From assembly GCF_900142205.1 (NCBI RefSeq), contig NZ_FRAA01000001.1:836803-900802 (forward strand): DNA of 64,000 nucleotides, written 5' to 3'. The notes beneath the pieces are model-generated. The model saw only the letters and a program-made list of their open reading frames with translations. It did no database searches and had not been told where the DNA came from. Origin of the DNA: Reichenbachiella agariperforans (GTDB taxonomy: Bacteria; Bacteroidota; Bacteroidia; Cytophagales; Cyclobacteriaceae). A program made the position numbers and the translations under genes. Shown one piece after another: positions 2,423 through 48,070 of the stretch (its first letter is position 1; each line of letters begins with the position of its first letter).

Positions 2423-5170
2423 TTAGAAAGTAAAATTATAAGTAATCGTAGGAATCGGAGATGGAAAAACCGTCATCTTATAGCCCTTGACCTCTCCATC
2501 TTCTACTCTAAAGAAAGTAGAATAAACATTGTCACGACCTAGGAGGTTGTACACCGAAAATGACCAATAGGAATGTGCCAGTTTCTTAATCTTATGATTG
2601 CCTTCTATGTTAATTCCCAGATCCACACGGAAGTAGTCTGGTATTCTGTACGAGTTTCGATCAGAATACAAGAGGTTTTCAGAACCTTGAAAGGTGTATT
2701 TCCCTGTAGGGTAAGTCGTCGGTACTCCCGTCGCGTAGACGAAGTTGACCGTCATCGTCAGTCTACGGGTAAATTTATAATTCGTCACAGAGTTAAGATA
2801 ATGCGGTTTGTCATACCCTGTCGGAAAGAACTCTCCACCATTGATAATCTCATCTGGAAAATCCCCATCAAGCTGGATCAACGATCGCGAATAGGTGTAA
2901 TTAATCCAGCCCGTCAGCCAACCCGAGCTCTTTTTGAGTGACAACTCTATACCATAAGACTTACCCGTGCCTTGCAATAGGTCTGTCTCTATATGTTTAT
3001 TGAACTGTAAATCCGCTCCTACTTTAAAATCCAATAGGTTCTGAATATGCTTATAATATACCTCTGCAGACATCTCTAGCGCATGTTTTCCATAGATATT
3101 GCGATAGTAACCTAGAGAAACCTGATCTGATATCTGTGGTTTGATATAAGGACCTGACAACCGCCACATATCAGTCGGAGCAATAGACGAAGAGTTGAGC
3201 AACAGATGGATATTCTGGCGGGTACGGTTATAACTCGCCTTGACTGAACTCGTCTCTGTCAATGAATACCTAGACGATAATCTATACTCCGGTCCTATAT
3301 AGGTCTTCACGATTTCATTCTTTCCATACGTATCAGTACCAATGACATAATTCTGATCGATGGGTTGATTCGGCGCATACTCATTCACCTCTCCAGGGCC
3401 TAATACAGCGAACATTGACAACCGAACCCCTCCCTCTACAGACAGCTTATCTGTGGGGCTATAAAGTGCAGAGGCATAAGGAGCCAGTTCTACACCTTGC
3501 TCATCAGGAACTCGATCTTTGTCTACTAGCGACTCGCTACCAGTGGGAGATTTGATACCTGGTGTCACAGAAGTATGCTTGACCTGCATCCCGAATTTAT
3601 AATTCAATTTTTCGTTGACATAGTAGTCAAACTTAGCTGACAAGTGGTTTTCCTTTACCCCATAATCAATACGAAACGCCTGCGTCGGCAATACATCGTA
3701 CCCAATATCGTAATCATACTGCGACATCCCTGCCTGAAAATCCGCCTGCAACTTATCATTAAATACATGACGCCAGTTGGCAGTCAACAGCTTGTTAGAA
3801 TAGGAAAAATCCGTGTAGGACAAAAGCGTATCTGAGGACAGCTGAAATCTATCCTTGCTATAATATCCACTAACTGAGACCGAGTTTTTATCATTGATCT
3901 CATAATCCAGTTTTCCTACCAGATCATAGAAAGACACATCATTATTCTTCAGTGGGGAGTTCTTGATTTTGTTGAGTACATAGTCCGAATAGGTTGCTCG
4001 CCCTCCTACCATGAAGGTCGGGCCATTTTTGAAGGTTGGACCTTCTACCATGAGTTTAGAAGTCACAGGTCCTATTCCACCCGAACCAGAGTATTTTTCC
4101 TTGTTCGGCTCTTTTGATTTGATATCAAATACGGAAGAAAGTCTACCTCCATACTCCGCAGGAATTGCACTCTTGTACAAATTCATCCCTGAGAGGGCAT
4201 CTGCATTGAAGACCGAGAAGAACCCAAAAAAGTGATTGGTATTATATACAGGCGTACCATCGAACAAGAACAAGTTCTGATCTGCTTTACCTCCCCGTAT
4301 ATTTATACCCGCCGAGCCTTCACCCAAAAACTGCACACCAGCTGTCGTAGTAGCGACTCTAACCAAATCCTTCTCTCCTAGCAGCGCAGGTACGATTTTC
4401 ATATTCTCTGGACTGATTTTAGTCAATCCCATCTGAGGACTCTTCGTATTGGCCTCCCGTTCGGCACTGACCACCACCGAGTTAAGTGCAATCACATCTA
4501 CGGCCATATCCACATCCAGTCGTCCATCCGAATACATCATTAAACGTCTATGCGTATTTTTCATATTCACAGACTGAATAAGCAAAGTACGTTTACCATT
4601 CGGTACATTGAGTGAATAAAAGCCTTCCGCGTCTGTAGTCGTCCCAATGAATGGACTCTCTATATAGACATAAGCATCCTGTACCGGTGTACCATTACCA
4701 GACTCTCTCACATACCCTGCCAGCGTACTACGTTTACCTTTTTCGTACAATTTTCTATTCCCTACGTCTAATAGAGTCTCCTCTAGACTCAAGTCCTGAC
4801 CAGACTGCTCGCGACTAAACACAACGTCCTCATCCTCTGGCACTACTTCTTGTTTGGAATTGATAGACTGTACAAAAACAGGTTCTGTGACAATCTCTTG
4901 ATTGTTGAGCAACACGATCTGGTTGCCCATGATATAAAAAGTAAGAACAGTATTAACCAACACTTGATCCAACTGTGGAACAATTGGCTGACTGTAATCT
5001 ACCTTAGAACTCACATAGATACCGTTCAGCCACTCGCTACGATAGGAAAATTCATAATCAGTGTGCGACTCTATCTCGGCTAATACCATATCCAGTCTTA
5101 CAGAGTCCGGAGTCTGTGCTGCACCTAACTGTGCAACTGCCAGAAAGAGGATTAATATCAAGTATCTCAT
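2423..5170 (-). CDS. TonB-dependent outer-membrane receptor with STN and carboxypeptidase-like N-terminal domains
   Basis: 915 residues. A signal peptide (to about residue 19, GAAQ) is followed by an STN/secretin-like domain (about 25-90), a low-complexity linker, a carboxypeptidase-regulatory beta-sandwich (about 150-235, GYVRESGNGTPVQDAYVYI), a plug domain (about 240-350, with NIRGGKADQNLFLFDGTPVY) and a long beta-barrel ending in an aromatic residue (YNFTF). It should import or bind an unknown ligand at the outer membrane using TonB energy. An N-terminal STN domain often signals to an anti-sigma factor, but no FecR or ECF sigma gene is in view. It sits in an operon with an exported protein upstream (four-base overlap) and DUF4249 and MG2-like proteins downstream. 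No SusD partner is present, so this is not a classical polysaccharide-utilisation pair. Confidence 0.9.
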   Translation of the reverse strand: MRYLILILFLAVAQLGAAQTPDSVRLDMVLAEIESHTDYEFSYRSEWLNGIYVSSKVDYSQPIVPQLDQVLVNTVLTFYIMGNQIVLLNNQEIVTEPVFVQSINSKQEVVPEDEDVVFSREQSGQDLSLEETLLDVGNRKLYEKGKRSTLAGYVRESGNGTPVQDAYVYIESPFIGTTTDAEGFYSLNVPNGKRTLLIQSVNMKNTHRRLMMYSDGRLDVDMAVDVIALNSVVVSAEREANTKSPQMGLTKISPENMKIVPALLGEKDLVRVATTTAGVQFLGEGSAGINIRGGKADQNLFLFDGTPVYNTNHFFGFFSVFNADALSGMNLYKSAIPAEYGGRLSSVFDIKSKEPNKEKYSGSGGIGPVTSKLMVEGPTFKNGPTFMVGGRATYSDYVLNKIKNSPLKNNDVSFYDLVGKLDYEINDKNSVSVSGYYSKDRFQLSSDTLLSYTDFSYSNKLLTANWRHVFNDKLQADFQAGMSQYDYDIGYDVLPTQAFRIDYGVKENHLSAKFDYYVNEKLNYKFGMQVKHTSVTPGIKSPTGSESLVDKDRVPDEQGVELAPYASALYSPTDKLSVEGGVRLSMFAVLGPGEVNEYAPNQPIDQNYVIGTDTYGKNEIVKTYIGPEYRLSSRYSLTETSSVKASYNRTRQNIHLLLNSSSIAPTDMWRLSGPYIKPQISDQVSLGYYRNIYGKHALEMSAEVYYKHIQNLLDFKVGADLQFNKHIETDLLQGTGKSYGIELSLKKSSGWLTGWINYTYSRSLIQLDGDFPDEIINGGEFFPTGYDKPHYLNSVTNYKFTRRLTMTVNFVYATGVPTTYPTGKYTFQGSENLLYSDRNSYRIPDYFRVDLGINIEGNHKIKKLAHSYWSFSVYNLLGRDNVYSTFFRVEDGEVKGYKMTVFPSPIPTITYNFTF

Positions 5171-37582: not shown

Positions 37583-37626
37583 CAAAAAAAGAAAGCCCTG
37601 ACTTCCAAATCGGAAAACCAGGGCTT
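37583..37626 (-). terminator. terminator of the aromatic amino acid operon
   Basis: AAGCCCTG (37593-37600) pairs with CAGGGCTT (37619-37626); an inner TTCC/GGAA extends it, and seven T follow on the minus strand. It is 27 bases beyond the stop of the DAHP synthase gene. Confidence 0.88.
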
Positions 37627-37652: not shown

Positions 37653-38765
37653 TTATGCGTTCTCTGCTTTTGTTTCACCAGAATTCATGATCGCTGTCTG
37701 TCTCTTGATAGAGTTGTTGTGGATCATTTCGTAGAGATCATGTACGAACTGCTCTTGGAGCAACAAGTCCTTCCCTTTTTTCACTCTATTCTCCATGATT
37801 TCCTCATATCTACCGACCTGTAAGATCGTGATATTGTGCTCCTTCTTGTGCATCGCGATCTCTTCAGCCACTTGCATTCTTTGTGCCAATACTTCCAACA
37901 GTTCATTGTCTATCTTGTCGATCTTCTCTCTAAGATTTTTCAATCTCAATTCGAAATCCACATCTTCAGAATTCGCTTCTCTGATGATCAATCTATCCAA
38001 GATACCTGCCAATGTCTTTGGTGTGATCTGCTGTTTAGCATCACTGAGTGCATTGTCTGGATCGATATGCGTCTCTATCATTACACCGTCCATTTGCATA
38101 TCAAATGCCTTCTGTGACACTGGTTCGATCAACGCTCTGTTACCTGCGATGTGACTAGGATCACAAATAATAGGTAGATTAGGAATGATTCTCTTCAACT
38201 CGATCGGAATCTCCCATGTCGGGTCATTTCTATACTGCGAACCACTCTTTGCAGAGAATCCTCTATGAATACCTCCTAATTTGGTAATACCCGCTTGGTT
38301 AATACGCTCCAACGCACCGATCCACAATTGCAAATCTGGATTGATTGGATTCTTAACCAATACAGGCACATCATGACCTTTCAGTGCGTCTGCTACTTCC
38401 TGAACAGAAAACGGGTTCACCGTTGTTCTTGCTCCTACCCATAGGATGTCTACGTTGAATTTCAACGCCAACTCTACGTGTTCAGCATTCGCTACTTCTA
38501 CTGCGGTCAAAAGACCCGTTTCAGCTTTTGCTTTCTCTAGCCATTTCAAGCCCACTACACCGATACCTTCAAATGCTCCTGGTCTTGTTCTTGGTTTCCA
38601 AATACCCGCTCTCAATACCTGAATATTGGTATTTGCTTTGATCTGACGAGCAGTTTCTAAAACCTGCTCTTCGCTCTCTGCGCTACATGGTCCACCGATA
38701 ATCAAAGGGGCGTTCAACCCTTCAATCCAGTTTTCCAAAGGCGACAATGTCAAATTAACTTTCAT
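37653..38765 (-). CDS. bifunctional 3-deoxy-7-phosphoheptulonate synthase / chorismate mutase
   Basis: 370 residues. Residues 1-265 are a KDO8P-synthase-like (type I beta) DAHP synthase: APLIIGGPCSAESEEQV, VLRAGIWKPRTRPGAFEG, LWVGARTTVNPFSVQEVA, KLGGIHRGFS and IICDPSHIAGNR. Residues 275-360 are an AroQ chorismate mutase (LREKIDKIDNELLEVLAQRM...VHDLYEMIHNNSIKRQ). It catalyses the first step of the shikimate pathway and the chorismate to prephenate step; a fused mutase domain often confers feedback control by prephenate. Last gene of the operon pheA-aminotransferase-tyrA-aroA/Q. Confidence 0.95.
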   Translation of the reverse strand: MKVNLTLSPLENWIEGLNAPLIIGGPCSAESEEQVLETARQIKANTNIQVLRAGIWKPRTRPGAFEGIGVVGLKWLEKAKAETGLLTAVEVANAEHVELALKFNVDILWVGARTTVNPFSVQEVADALKGHDVPVLVKNPINPDLQLWIGALERINQAGITKLGGIHRGFSAKSGSQYRNDPTWEIPIELKRIIPNLPIICDPSHIAGNRALIEPVSQKAFDMQMDGVMIETHIDPDNALSDAKQQITPKTLAGILDRLIIREANSEDVDFELRLKNLREKIDKIDNELLEVLAQRMQVAEEIAMHKKEHNITILQVGRYEEIMENRVKKGKDLLLQEQFVHDLYEMIHNNSIKRQTAIMNSGETKAENA

Positions 38766-38790: not shown

Positions 38791-39684
38791 TTATACTACT
38801 TCTTCTTTAATGGGGCTGTCAGTCCTCTTCTTGCTATCAATACCCTTCAAAACCCTACGGATTTCATTGGCATTATCCATGCAAGAGATCATGGCATCCT
38901 CTTCTCCTTCATCCAACAGCGTCTTAAACGCCGCTAAATTATCAATATATGCACCCAACGCCTTGCTGATGTGCTTTTTATTCTGTTTAAATATAGGCGC
39001 CCACATCTGCGGCGAACTCTTGGCCAACCTCACCGTAGAGGCAAATCCACTCCCCGCGAGGTTAAATATATTCGCCTCATTCTTCTCAATCTCCAAGACC
39101 GTCTGCCCAAGGATAAAAGAGCTAATGTGCGATATGTGTGACACATACGCAATGTGCAAATCATGCGACTGACTATCCATCTCGATGATATGCATCCCAA
39201 GATTCAGCAAACATGACTTGGCCAGCTCATAACATGACCTTTGAGACTTCTCTGCATCACAGATAATCCCCGTTTTACCATCGAAGAGTGACGAAAACGC
39301 CGCTTCTGGCCCAGAATTCTCAGTCCCTGCAATAGGGTGTGCCGCTACAAAACTCTTTCTATTCTCATGTCCTTCTACCACCTGACATATTTGTTCTTTG
39401 GTAGACCCGAGATCCATCACTGTCGTCCCCTCATCAATCGCATCGAGCATAGCTGGTAGCAGTTTGGTCATCCCATCTACAGGGATTGCCAAAATAACAA
39501 GATCGGCACGTTGGATCGCTTGCTGGTAGACGACTGTCTCATCTACTAGACCCAACTCCACCGCTTTCGCACAGTTGCTATCGCTGAGATCCACCCCCAG
39601 CACTAAGTCTGCAAAACCTACTTCTTTAAGTCGCTTACCCACCGATCCTCCGATCAGTCCTAAACCTATTATTGATACGATCAT
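38791..39684 (-). CDS. tyrA: prephenate dehydrogenase
   Basis: The frame runs from 39741, but ATG 39684 (MIVSIIGLGLIGGSVG) overlaps the aminotransferase stop (ATGA) and begins the NAD-binding GxGxxGG motif, so it is the start; 297 residues. Further motifs: GVDLSDSNCAKA, LAIPVDG, MDLGSTKEQI, FVAAHPIAGTENSGPEAA (active-site His) and DSQSHDLHIAYVSHISHI. It oxidatively decarboxylates prephenate to 4-hydroxyphenylpyruvate for tyrosine. No C-terminal ACT domain is seen. Confidence 0.93.
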   Translation of the reverse strand: MIVSIIGLGLIGGSVGKRLKEVGFADLVLGVDLSDSNCAKAVELGLVDETVVYQQAIQRADLVILAIPVDGMTKLLPAMLDAIDEGTTVMDLGSTKEQICQVVEGHENRKSFVAAHPIAGTENSGPEAAFSSLFDGKTGIICDAEKSQRSCYELAKSCLLNLGMHIIEMDSQSHDLHIAYVSHISHISSFILGQTVLEIEKNEANIFNLAGSGFASTVRLAKSSPQMWAPIFKQNKKHISKALGAYIDNLAAFKTLLDEGEEDAMISCMDNANEIRRVLKGIDSKKRTDSPIKEEVV

Positions 39685-40838
39685 GCTTTTACCGTTTCTA
39701 ATCTCCCCAATACTGTACGCAATACATCCTGCGTAGAGCAAAGAGATATTCTTATATATCCTTCGCCATTCGAACCAAAAATTGTTCCCGGCGTGATGAA
39801 CACATACTTGTTTTGCAGTATCTCATCGACAAACTCCTCGCTCTGTCTCCCCTCAGGAATCCTAGCCCATAGAAACATACCCGACTGCTGTTCGTCATGC
39901 TGACATTCTAATATATCAAGCAACTGCTCTGCCAACAGACGCCTCTGCTGATACTCTTTATTGATGGATTCAAACCACTCTTTTGGAAGGCTCAGTGCTT
40001 TAACCGCTGCATCCTGTACAGGTCTAAACATCCCAGAGTCCACGTTGGATTTTACTCTCAAAATCGCATCGATGTACTCCTGTCGTCCACTGACCATCCC
40101 TACTCTCCAGCCTGCCATATTAAAAGCCTTACTCATAGAGTTTAGTTCCAAGCAATTCTCCTTGCTCCCCGGGATAGACAACAAACTCAATGGGTTGTCA
40201 TTGAGGATAAAACTATATGGATTGTCATTGATGACCAATATTTCATTTTGATTGGCAAACTCTGCCAAGCCTGCCAAAATTTCTTTGTTCGCCTTTTTCC
40301 CTGTAGGCATATTGGGATAGTTCACCCACATCATCTTGGCTGCCTTGATCACTGCTGCATCGATCTGATCAAACTGTGGTACCCATCCATTTTCTTCTTT
40401 CAGGTCGTAGAACACTACTTTAGCCCCCATCATTTCTGCTGCTGTTTTATAGGCAGGATACCCTGGATTAGGAATCAAAACCGTATCCCCAGCATTCAAG
40501 AAGGCCATAGAGATGTACATCACTCCTTCTTTGGAACCCAACAAGGGTAAAATCTCCGAAACGGGGTTCAACTCCACGTCATAATGACTTTGGTAGAAGG
40601 CAGCTATCGCCTCTCTCAACTCGGGAATCGAGCGATAAGACTGATAGGCGTGATTCGTCGCATCACTGGCACTCCTCACCAACTCCTCAGCTACCTCTGG
40701 CGCTGGGGGCAAGTCAGGACTACCGATCCCCAAATTGATCACGTCCTTTCCGTCCGCGACCATGGCCCTGATTTCATCCAATTTCTTAGAGAAATAGTAC
40801 TCCTTTACATCCGCTATTCTATCTGCTACCTTTATCAT
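39681..40838 (-). CDS. class I/II aminotransferase, probable aromatic aminotransferase
   Basis: 385 residues, PLP fold type I. The substrate-binding LGIGSPDLPP, the NYPNMPTGKKA motif, NDNPYSFI and the PLP lysine in SMSKAFNMAGWRVGM (Lys237) are all in place. Close to the LL-diaminopimelate/alanine aminotransferase branch, but its position between pheA and tyrA suggests it transaminates phenylpyruvate and 4-hydroxyphenylpyruvate (or prephenate). Its start overlaps the end of pheA by 20 bases and its stop overlaps tyrA by four, indicating tight translational coupling. Confidence 0.92.
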   Translation of the reverse strand: MIKVADRIADVKEYYFSKKLDEIRAMVADGKDVINLGIGSPDLPPAPEVAEELVRSASDATNHAYQSYRSIPELREAIAAFYQSHYDVELNPVSEILPLLGSKEGVMYISMAFLNAGDTVLIPNPGYPAYKTAAEMMGAKVVFYDLKEENGWVPQFDQIDAAVIKAAKMMWVNYPNMPTGKKANKEILAGLAEFANQNEILVINDNPYSFILNDNPLSLLSIPGSKENCLELNSMSKAFNMAGWRVGMVSGRQEYIDAILRVKSNVDSGMFRPVQDAAVKALSLPKEWFESINKEYQQRRLLAEQLLDILECQHDEQQSGMFLWARIPEGRQSEEFVDEILQNKYVFITPGTIFGSNGEGYIRISLCSTQDVLRTVLGRLETVKA

Positions 40839-41664
40839 ATTCAGGCATTACTCCTTTTTTGTATTCACCATGTATTTTAATCAATTCCGCACTTTTCTCA
40901 ATGGCTTTGAGGGCAGATTGATAGTCTTTGTAATCCTCCCACACCACATCCACATTGAATGCGTATCGGTATGGCTGGCCTAAAACAGGCATAGACTGAA
41001 TCTTCGTCATATTGATCTTGTGCTCTTTGAACGCCACCAGCACATCAGACAACCGACCCGGGTCGTGCTTGGTCATGATCCTCAAAGAAGCCTTCTCTGG
41101 TTCAGCCGTATGACCATTCATACGACTCTTCATGATCAAAAATCTTGTGTAATTAAGCTTATTCGTCTCTATATTCTCATGGAGTACTTCCATACCGAAT
41201 AACTCAGCGGCCTTTTTACTGGCTATCGCTGCAGCATTCGTCAGCTGAGACTCTTTGATCAACCGCACACTATCGGCGGTATCTTCATATTCTGTCAATT
41301 TGATCTGAGGATGCAAAGCCAAAAAATCCGCACACTGCAATAGCGCCATAGGATGAGAGAACACCTGATTGAGTTCTTCCACTTTAGCTCCAGGATTCAC
41401 GATGAGGTTCATTTCTATCCTGATGTAAACCTCTCCTACTACCTCTAGATCGTACTCATTGATCAATGCATAGTTGGGCAAAATGCTCCCAGCGATCGTA
41501 TTCTCTATAGCCATCACGCCATAATCCAACTCTTTGGCCTGTATCGATTTGGCCAGCGACCTGAAGTCGTTGAATGGACGCAGTTCCAAATCTTCTCTTG
41601 CGAAATATTTGGCCGCTGCCTGATCATGAAACGATCCTAATACACCCTGAATTCCAACCTCCAT
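40819..41664 (-). CDS. pheA: prephenate dehydratase
   Basis: 281 residues. Catalytic domain with GVLGSFHDQAAAKYF, YGVMAIENTIAGSI and NYTRFLIM (TRF motif with the essential Thr); C-terminal ACT domain (SLRIMTKHDPGRLSDVLVAF...). The classical Phe-binding ESRP motif reads IQSMP here and GALV reads GRLS, a variant form, so allosteric inhibition by Phe cannot be assumed. It makes phenylpyruvate from prephenate. First structural gene of the operon, directly downstream of the leader peptide and attenuator at 41682-41812. Confidence 0.94.
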   Translation of the reverse strand: MEVGIQGVLGSFHDQAAAKYFAREDLELRPFNDFRSLAKSIQAKELDYGVMAIENTIAGSILPNYALINEYDLEVVGEVYIRIEMNLIVNPGAKVEELNQVFSHPMALLQCADFLALHPQIKLTEYEDTADSVRLIKESQLTNAAAIASKKAAELFGMEVLHENIETNKLNYTRFLIMKSRMNGHTAEPEKASLRIMTKHDPGRLSDVLVAFKEHKINMTKIQSMPVLGQPYRYAFNVDVVWEDYKDYQSALKAIEKSAELIKIHGEYKKGVMPEYDKGSR

Positions 41665-41681
41665 TTAATCATGTTTATATC

Positions 41682-41713
41682 AAAAAAAAACCCCGAACAC
41701 ATCCGAGGTTTTT
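41682..41713 (-). terminator. attenuator: intrinsic terminator in the leader of the aromatic operon
   Basis: On the minus strand AAAAACCTCGGA pairs with TTCGGGGTTTTT (12 bp with two G-T wobbles) around a TGTG loop, followed by a run of T reaching nine in total. It stands 24 bases after the leader-peptide stop and 17 bases before the pheA ATG, so it can only act on the downstream operon. The 5' arm base run ACCTC (41705-41709) can alternatively pair with GGGGT in leader codons 21-22 (41748-41752), giving a candidate antiterminator. Confidence 0.85.
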
Positions 41714-41737
41714 ATATTTCTTGTTTACACAAAAGAA

Positions 41738-41812
41738 CTATTCTTTCACCCCTGATGCTTTTGCATAGTAATAAAAATAAAAGTAGTTCCAATATGCTCT
41801 TGAGTTCTTCAT
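41738..41812 (-). CDS. leader peptide rich in Tyr, Phe and Trp (attenuation peptide)
   Basis: A 24-codon frame, ATG at 41812 to TAG at 41738. Residues 7-16 read YWNYFYFYYY, nine aromatic residues of ten, which chance hardly gives; the remainder is ordinary. Codons used are TAT/TAC, TTT and TGG. It precedes the terminator hairpin and pheA, with the order promoter, peptide, hairpin, structural genes exactly as in pheL or trpL systems. Low charged Tyr-tRNA or Phe-tRNA would stall the ribosome on this run and free leader codons 19-22 for antiterminator pairing. Not found by standard gene size cut-offs. Confidence 0.85.
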   Translation of the reverse strand: MKNSRAYWNYFYFYYYAKASGVKE

Positions 41813-41829
41813 AGTCTTTATTGATGCCC

Positions 41830-41860
41830 CAAATTTGAAAATTCATTAGATAACATCAAA
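41830..41860 (-). promoter_or_regulatory. probable promoter of the aromatic operon
   Basis: On the minus strand TTTG (41857-41860) is followed after 19 bases by CAAATTTG (41830-41837), one mismatch from the Bacteroidota -7 consensus TAnnTTTG. This would start transcription about 10-12 bases before the leader-peptide ATG. Confidence 0.55.
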
Positions 41861-47997: not shown

Positions 47998-48070
47998 GCC
48001 TCCTTAGCTCAGTTGGTAGAGCACCTCACTTGTAATGAGGCGGTCGTTGGTTCGAGTCCGACAGGGGGCT
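47998..48070 (+). tRNA. tRNA-Thr (anticodon TGT)
   Basis: All arms fold: acceptor GCCTCCT/AGGGGGC, D arm GCTC-loop-GAGC, anticodon stem CCTCA/TGAGG with loop CTTGTAA (anticodon TGT), T arm GTTGG-TTCGAGT-CCGAC. 73 bases with discriminator T and no encoded CCA. Confidence 0.97.

Follow-up and report, generated by a model that had tools for sequence, protein, structure and literature searches.

How is the expression of a pheA operon adjusted to the supply of aromatic amino acids in a member of the Bacteroidota? The question is raised by the minus strand of the window (the whole stretch of 64,000 nt of Reichenbachiella agariperforans DNA that was analysed), where a short open reading frame (ORF) dense in aromatic codons and an intrinsic terminator lie between a promoter-like pair of elements and pheA.

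The leader and the operon downstream

The features that bear on the question are the following, with segments A to D denoting the strands of the proposed alternative pairings.

41857 to 41860, minus strand: TTTG, the -33 element of a promoter-like pair, assigned from sequence
41830 to 41837, minus strand: CAAATTTG, the -7 element (spacing TTTG-N19-CAAATTTG)
41738 to 41812, minus strand: leader ORF MKNSRAYWNYFYFYYYAKASGVKE, 24 codons, stop codon TAG, read from the sequence and conserved in relatives
41784 to 41790, minus strand: segment A (GGAACTA), predicted to pair with segment C in the ribosome-free leader
41765 to 41794, minus strand: regulatory codons 7-16, YWNYFYFYYY (6 Tyr, 2 Phe, 1 Trp, 1 Asn)
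41748 to 41758, minus strand: segment B (GCATCAGGGGT), putative 5' strand of the antiterminator, within leader codons 19-22
41734 to 41740, minus strand: segment C (TAGTTCT, starting at the stop codon), predicted partner of A
41699 to 41709, minus strand: segment D (ACCTCGGATGT), 5' arm and loop of the terminator, with B or the terminator 3' arm as partner
41682 to 41713, minus strand: intrinsic terminator (12-bp stem 41713-41686, loop of 4, T tract to 41682)
40819 to 41664, minus strand: pheA, prephenate dehydratase (Pfam PDT domain over cut-off, ACT domain below cut-off)
39681 to 40838, minus strand: class I/II aminotransferase, overlapping the end of pheA
38791 to 39684, minus strand: tyrA, prephenate dehydrogenase (over the NCBIfam cut-off; ATG taken at 39684)
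37653 to 38765, minus strand: DAHP synthase fused to chorismate mutase (both Pfam domains over cut-off)
37593 to 37626, minus strand: 14-bp terminator-like stem after the four-gene run

The leader stop codon is separated from the terminator stem by 24 nt and the T tract from the pheA ATG (41664) by 17 nt. These spacings, the 24-codon ORF, its YWNYFYFYYY run and the 12-bp terminator had all been given in the first-pass annotation of this DNA and hold at every coordinate, as does the TTTG-N19 promoter proposed there (TTTG at 41860-41857, CAAATTTG at 41837-41830). By its consensus, we take this pair of elements to be a promoter of the Bacteroidota type. The -7 element reads CANNTTTG in seven of eight Reichenbachiella genomes and TANNTTTG elsewhere, and TTTG or TTG followed by TANNTTTG or CANNTTTG was found upstream of 43 of the 102 family leaders described below versus 87 of 5100 shuffles. 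The leader RNA of the window folds with a z score of -2.45 (3 of 200 shuffles were equally good), and the four genes downstream are joined by overlaps or a short gap.

Very probably, the leader acts as a ribosome-mediated attenuator of transcription and senses the levels of charged tRNA-Tyr and tRNA-Phe. The leader, its frame, the terminator and the B:D and A:C pairings are drawn from sequence comparison and the ribosome states from modelling, and we infer the start site, the response to starvation and the action of both Phe and Tyr. Transcription would begin just upstream of the leader ORF. With tRNA-Tyr or tRNA-Phe scarce in charged form, the first ribosome would stall in codons 7-16 and leave B (41758-41748) free to pair with D (41709-41699), so that the terminator would be blocked and RNA polymerase would enter the pheA-aminotransferase-tyrA-DAHP synthase/chorismate mutase run. 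With both charged tRNAs plentiful, the ribosome would reach the stop codon and cover B, and the terminator (41713-41686) would form. When no ribosome is present, A:C and local pairs would hold B, making termination the default in the window leader.

Conservation and alternative pairings

The search upstream of pheA homologues that had been proposed for this locus was made on regions drawn, by similarity to the PheA of the window, from relatives, public genome contigs and the phylum. The 180 loci were reduced to 175 by dropping two duplicates (L005 and L006, the same as L031 and L032) and three loci with less than 120 nt upstream (L009, L033 and L080), and a region passed when at least 6 of 10 residues in a short ORF were F, Y or W and a terminator followed within 110 nt. 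Aromatic leader and terminator proved to be conserved together, in 102 of the 175 regions (39 of 60 named loci and 63 of 115 unnamed loci) versus none of 1750 dinucleotide shuffles. Taken singly, an aromatic score of at least 7 was reached in 114 of 175 regions, 11 of 1750 shuffles and none of 175 opposite strands, and a terminator was present in 113 of 175 regions versus 34 of 1750 shuffles. All eight sampled Reichenbachiella genomes (the window included) have both elements, and other named carriers include Flavobacterium columnare, F. davisii, F. covae, Alistipes, other Rikenellaceae, Ekhidna and Crocinitomicaceae. Outside the class of the window, within the same phylum, 5 of 17 regions pass (L095, L099, L100, L125 and L147). 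The 102 leaders are not independent, falling by DNA similarity into 27 clusters of which the largest hold 30 and 21.

Amongst the 73 regions that fail, 18 score at least 6 for an aromatic ORF and miss the strict terminator or spacing, and 55 score 5 or less. At least ten failing loci, Algoriphagus among them, have pheA directly behind another open frame, and some of these frames end in ...SYPSFWKH and are presumably aroA-like. No aromatic leader was found near pheA in the DNA examined at loci of this arrangement (L040, L041, L044 and similar, from Algoriphagus and relatives), L041 having one weak aromatic ORF 1.6 kb upstream of pheA; nor was a leader found upstream of the longer, distant prephenate dehydratases of four genomes of the same family (L177-L180). 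Four loci (L038, L043, L045 and L081) have an aromatic leader and failed the strict terminator scan, with a weaker stem detected in another scan, and in the first three of these the gene order is pheA-tyrA-DAHP synthase-aminotransferase.

In the window, B and D pair at 10 of 11 positions (41758-41748 with 41709-41699; -13.2 kcal/mol), and this pairing and the terminator are mutually exclusive because D supplies the terminator with its 5' arm and loop. The pairing of GGGGT (41752-41748) with ACCTC (41709-41705) had been recognized from the start and stands as described, although the complementarity extends well beyond it. Tests based on swapping and permutation were used because the consensus fold of the genus gave little covariation (both partners had changed in 3 of 34 pairs; covariation term +0.83). 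For pairing with its terminator arm, the tail of the window leader outdoes all of its 100 shuffles. Across the family, the mean energy of tail:arm pairing is -15.3 kcal/mol for a leader's own tail and arm, -9.9 with arms swapped between species and -8.2 for shuffled tails, the own tail being better than shuffled at p<=0.05 in 82 of 102 leaders and not in the other 20. When each cluster is represented by a single sequence, the means become -16.5 (own) versus -9.9 (foreign), none of 20,000 permutations reaches the observed sum over the 27 clusters, and 18 of the 27 representatives lie within the best 5% of foreign tails, with 9 above 0.05. Segment B begins before the end of the leader stop codon in 98 of 102 leaders, at a median distance of 9 nt from the last aromatic codon. 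The terminator arms diverge widely in sequence between groups, so that the B:D match represents compensatory change, and it is the strongest evidence here for ribosome-mediated attenuation.

The A:C pairing is likewise stronger within than between species (-11.9 versus -9.1), with 26 of 102 leaders in the best 5%; on clusters, none of 20,000 permutations reached the observed value, but only 6 of 27 representatives were in the best 5%. This pairing is visible in the consensus fold of the genus and resembles the I:II hairpin of trp leaders as presented in PMC1183508. Family-wide, the region of the first aromatic codons pairs with bases at and after the stop codon (segment C), enclosing the antiterminator strand.

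The ribosome states were approximated with a fold model in which the ribosome covers 13 nt from the A-site codon onward, with no pseudoknots and no kinetics. For the window, the expected number of B:D pairs in this model is 0.04 with no ribosome, 9.7, 9.8 and 5.3 with a ribosome at the first, middle and last aromatic codon, respectively, and 0.0 with a ribosome at the stop codon. Across the family, at least three B:D pairs are predicted in 99, 102 and 101 of 102 leaders for the same three stalling positions and in 1 of 102 for a ribosome at the stop codon, where the modelled occlusion follows partly from the position of B itself. Folding with and without a ribosome, a check suggested along with the original proposal, hence favors it: in the model, the antiterminator is freed by stalling and hidden by a ribosome that finishes the leader nearly everywhere in the family. 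Default termination is predicted not to be general, because the model lets B:D form (at least three pairs) in 76 of 102 ribosome-free leaders and predicts ribosome-free termination in 26 of 102; in the window leader, A:C is predicted to hold B away from D when no ribosome is present.

The leader thus combines the clustered codons for product amino acids, the intrinsic terminator and the compensating, mutually exclusive antiterminator of leader-peptide attenuators, its antiterminator being free at the stall and covered at the stop in the thermodynamic model only. The leader is real and, on comparative evidence, probably works like the classical attenuators, of which it is a widespread member with mixed Phe and Tyr codons and with no Rfam entry found. 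The first-pass annotation had proposed ribosome-mediated attenuation of the Phe/Tyr operon, a proposal that the comparative tests of antiterminator and terminator support, and together with the gene identities these tests also speak for its further suggestion that prephenate dehydratase, aminotransferase, tyrA and DAHP synthase-chorismate mutase would be governed together.

Signals and competing explanations

Phe and Tyr are the likely signals. Both are present in all 102 leaders with at least two codons each (counted in the ORF as scored), and the codon totals are 472 for Phe and 395 for Tyr. The alternative that retains the most weight is that the attenuator answers in practice to Phe (or Tyr) alone, with the other codons as spectators, TTY and TAY being one base apart. 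The retention of at least two codons for each amino acid throughout the family and the composition of the window run (six Tyr, two Phe) argue against this, and tyrA follows pheA on the same strand in 30 of the 39 named leader loci (DAHP synthase in 36 of 39; both recounted by hand). However, pheA is the first gene, and no tyrA match was found in 6 of the 39 despite at least 2.6 kb of downstream DNA, 3 more having too little downstream DNA. A precedent for a single signal is AroR of Corynebacterium glutamicum, which contains Phe-Tyr-Phe and is reported to respond to Phe limitation and not to Tyr (PMC11802643). On balance, a single effective signal is unlikely, though far from negligible.

The first-pass annotation had instead envisaged a single switch responding to Phe, Tyr and Trp, a reading that is now improbable. 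The window leader has one TGG at codon 8, such a codon is present in 6 of 8 Reichenbachiella leaders, and the DAHP synthase encoded in the operon also feeds Trp synthesis; yet the Trp codon is missing in 2 of the 8, and in the family Trp occurs in 29 of 102 leaders, with one codon each. Moreover, the same genome has a separate leader, MKMINKNMTWWWCISNQK (with WWW), and an intrinsic terminator in front of a chorismate-binding gene presumed to be trpE (L201; G000:C20, upstream of 154839, minus strand). An equal third role for Trp is therefore dismissed as a general rule, and in the window leader a response to Trp would be at most an extra.

The leader at L201 has a weak antiterminator (-7.4 kcal/mol) and is a candidate Trp attenuator that is not matched by the Rfam family Bacteroid-trp. 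Another leader in this genome, MTTNRQHHHHTMKRSGEVI (with HHHH; inner ATG chosen), lies with a terminator before hisG (L204; G000:C11, upstream of 304001, plus strand), and its antiterminator falls in the last codons (-12.7 kcal/mol), making it a candidate His attenuator of the same layout as the pheA leader. Given the His and Trp leaders in the same genome, three parallel leaders look likely, through which control by His, Trp and Phe/Tyr is suggested to run. By eye, no clear leader was seen at the HMGL-like (leuA-type) genes L205-L207.

A terminator that is constitutive, or part of an uncharacterised ligand-binding RNA, with the aromatic ORF left unread, is a much less probable explanation. 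Such an RNA, if undescribed, would be absent from Rfam. Against this explanation, none of the Rfam families comes up to its threshold either in the leader or at the loci of 20 relatives. The frame, the ATG position and the codon class are kept while the RNA sequence diverges into 27 clusters, and this argues for translation. In the F/Y frame, 100 of 102 leaders have an ATG ahead of the aromatic run, and in 66 it lies at a distance of 5 or 6 codons from the first aromatic codon. An ATG-started ORF within 25 codons, closed ahead of the terminator, is found for this frame in 95 of 102 leaders, compared with 1 and 4 for the other two frames. Because the leaders were preselected for a start codon and a stop in the F/Y frame, only the preference for ATG and its position are independent evidence. 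Within Reichenbachiella, the run varies among Tyr, Phe, Trp, Asn and one Arg (L002), and ORF lengths differ by whole codons. A Leu-rich overlapping frame (41846-41712) was also considered as the leader and rejected on the rarity of ATG-started ORFs in the other frames of relatives.

The least tenable explanation, with next to no probability, is that A+T-rich DNA in front of an ordinary terminator happens to hold an aromatic run: six consecutive TWY codons are in themselves not unusual in the genome (21 places, with 26 overlapping matches compared with 35 for the reversed control pattern), but the conservation in relatives, against no passing shuffle, refutes it and the antiterminator complementarity also opposes it. 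At 17 of the remaining 20 places, no terminator-like stem lies within 250 nt. The three with such a stem were rejected as aromatic leaders, L186 lying between two genes on the opposite strand and L187 and L199 having, by eye, no aromatic-pathway gene beside them.

Relation to known leaders

In E. coli, pheL-pheA comprises a short ORF whose codons include those for the amino acid made, a terminator before pheA and an alternative antiterminator. The window leader shares these three elements with pheL-pheA of E. coli and other Gammaproteobacteria (Rfam RF01859, Phe_leader), and differs in mixing Tyr with Phe codons and in placing the antiterminator strand in the last codons of the leader itself. 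Phe_leader was the best-scoring weak match, at 26.3 bits versus a gathering cut-off of 55, and the window is therefore not a member of RF01859. No Rfam family reached gathering in the window leader or at the loci of the 20 carrier relatives, the only match of the window at gathering being a tRNA gene (47998-48070, plus strand). Additionally, no T-box or known amino-acid riboswitch was matched in the leader, nor was one among the 22 matches up to E 10, and RF01692 (Bacteroid-trp) was matched neither in the window nor in the genome among the 150 of 427 first-look candidates that were scored. Attenuator candidates in Bacteroidetes/Chlorobi are reportedly mentioned in the abstract of Vitreschak et al. 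2004.

Attenuation through a leader peptide is classical, and pheA is among the known cases (PMC1183508). Bacteroid-trp (RF01692), listed among the motifs in PMC2864571, is likewise a cis-regulatory RNA of Bacteroidetes and belongs, by its name, to the trp pathway. In F. psychrophilum, a transcriptome from 2021 gave 'strong clues' that leader-peptide attenuation operates in front of amino-acid operons, and a 5' element of pheA was found to be conserved in Flavobacteriaceae and to lack Rfam hits (PMC9723704). This element resembles the window leader in gene, phylum and structured 5' transcript; the main-text passages on it give no peptide, codons or mechanism and state its conservation for Flavobacteriaceae (PMC9723704). 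Some small ORFs in long 5' UTRs of B. thetaiotaomicron have been called reminiscent of attenuation leader peptides, although the example given precedes a hypothetical protein and the text consulted contains no phenylalanine case (PMC7366714). Outside the phylum, the AroR leader of aroF in C. glutamicum (Neshat et al. 2014, as described in PMC11802643) is a mixed Phe/Tyr leader before a DAHP synthase gene, differing, by description, in its phylum, in having only Phe-Tyr-Phe and in the reported lack of effect of Tyr. A mixed Phe/Tyr leader as such thus has a precedent, and the first-pass statement that attenuation by mixed aromatic codons was without known precedent in this phylum must be narrowed in view of the F. 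psychrophilum element with its 'strong clues' and the presence of Bacteroid-trp in Rfam; what stands is that no mixed Phe/Tyr leader in Bacteroidota was found described in the passages of open-access literature searched.

A broader reading, which we put forward tentatively and as somewhat short of probable, is that the leaders form a phylum-wide, uncatalogued group of Bacteroidota attenuators in which the supplies of Tyr and Phe would be integrated in one leader, perhaps the first with Tyr codons as true sensors, and in which the antiterminator strand would lie in the last codons of the leader, making the terminating ribosome the switch. If this is true, ribosome and RNA polymerase would be kinetically coupled in Bacteroidota, whose ribosomes are said not to use Shine-Dalgarno pairing, and the prediction that the leading ribosome tracks RNA polymerase closely in these bacteria is directly testable. 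The leader offers a precise, conserved and testable Bacteroidota attenuator, and the 102 examples could serve for building a family model. One further aromatic leader, MKTVRYYRYDFAFRFSG, was observed with a terminator before a Bacteroidota-like pheA (match at 3001) on a contig filed as Victivallales, another phylum (L085); it has a strong antiterminator (-23.2 kcal/mol) and reflects either transfer of the gene together with its attenuator or a misbinned contig.
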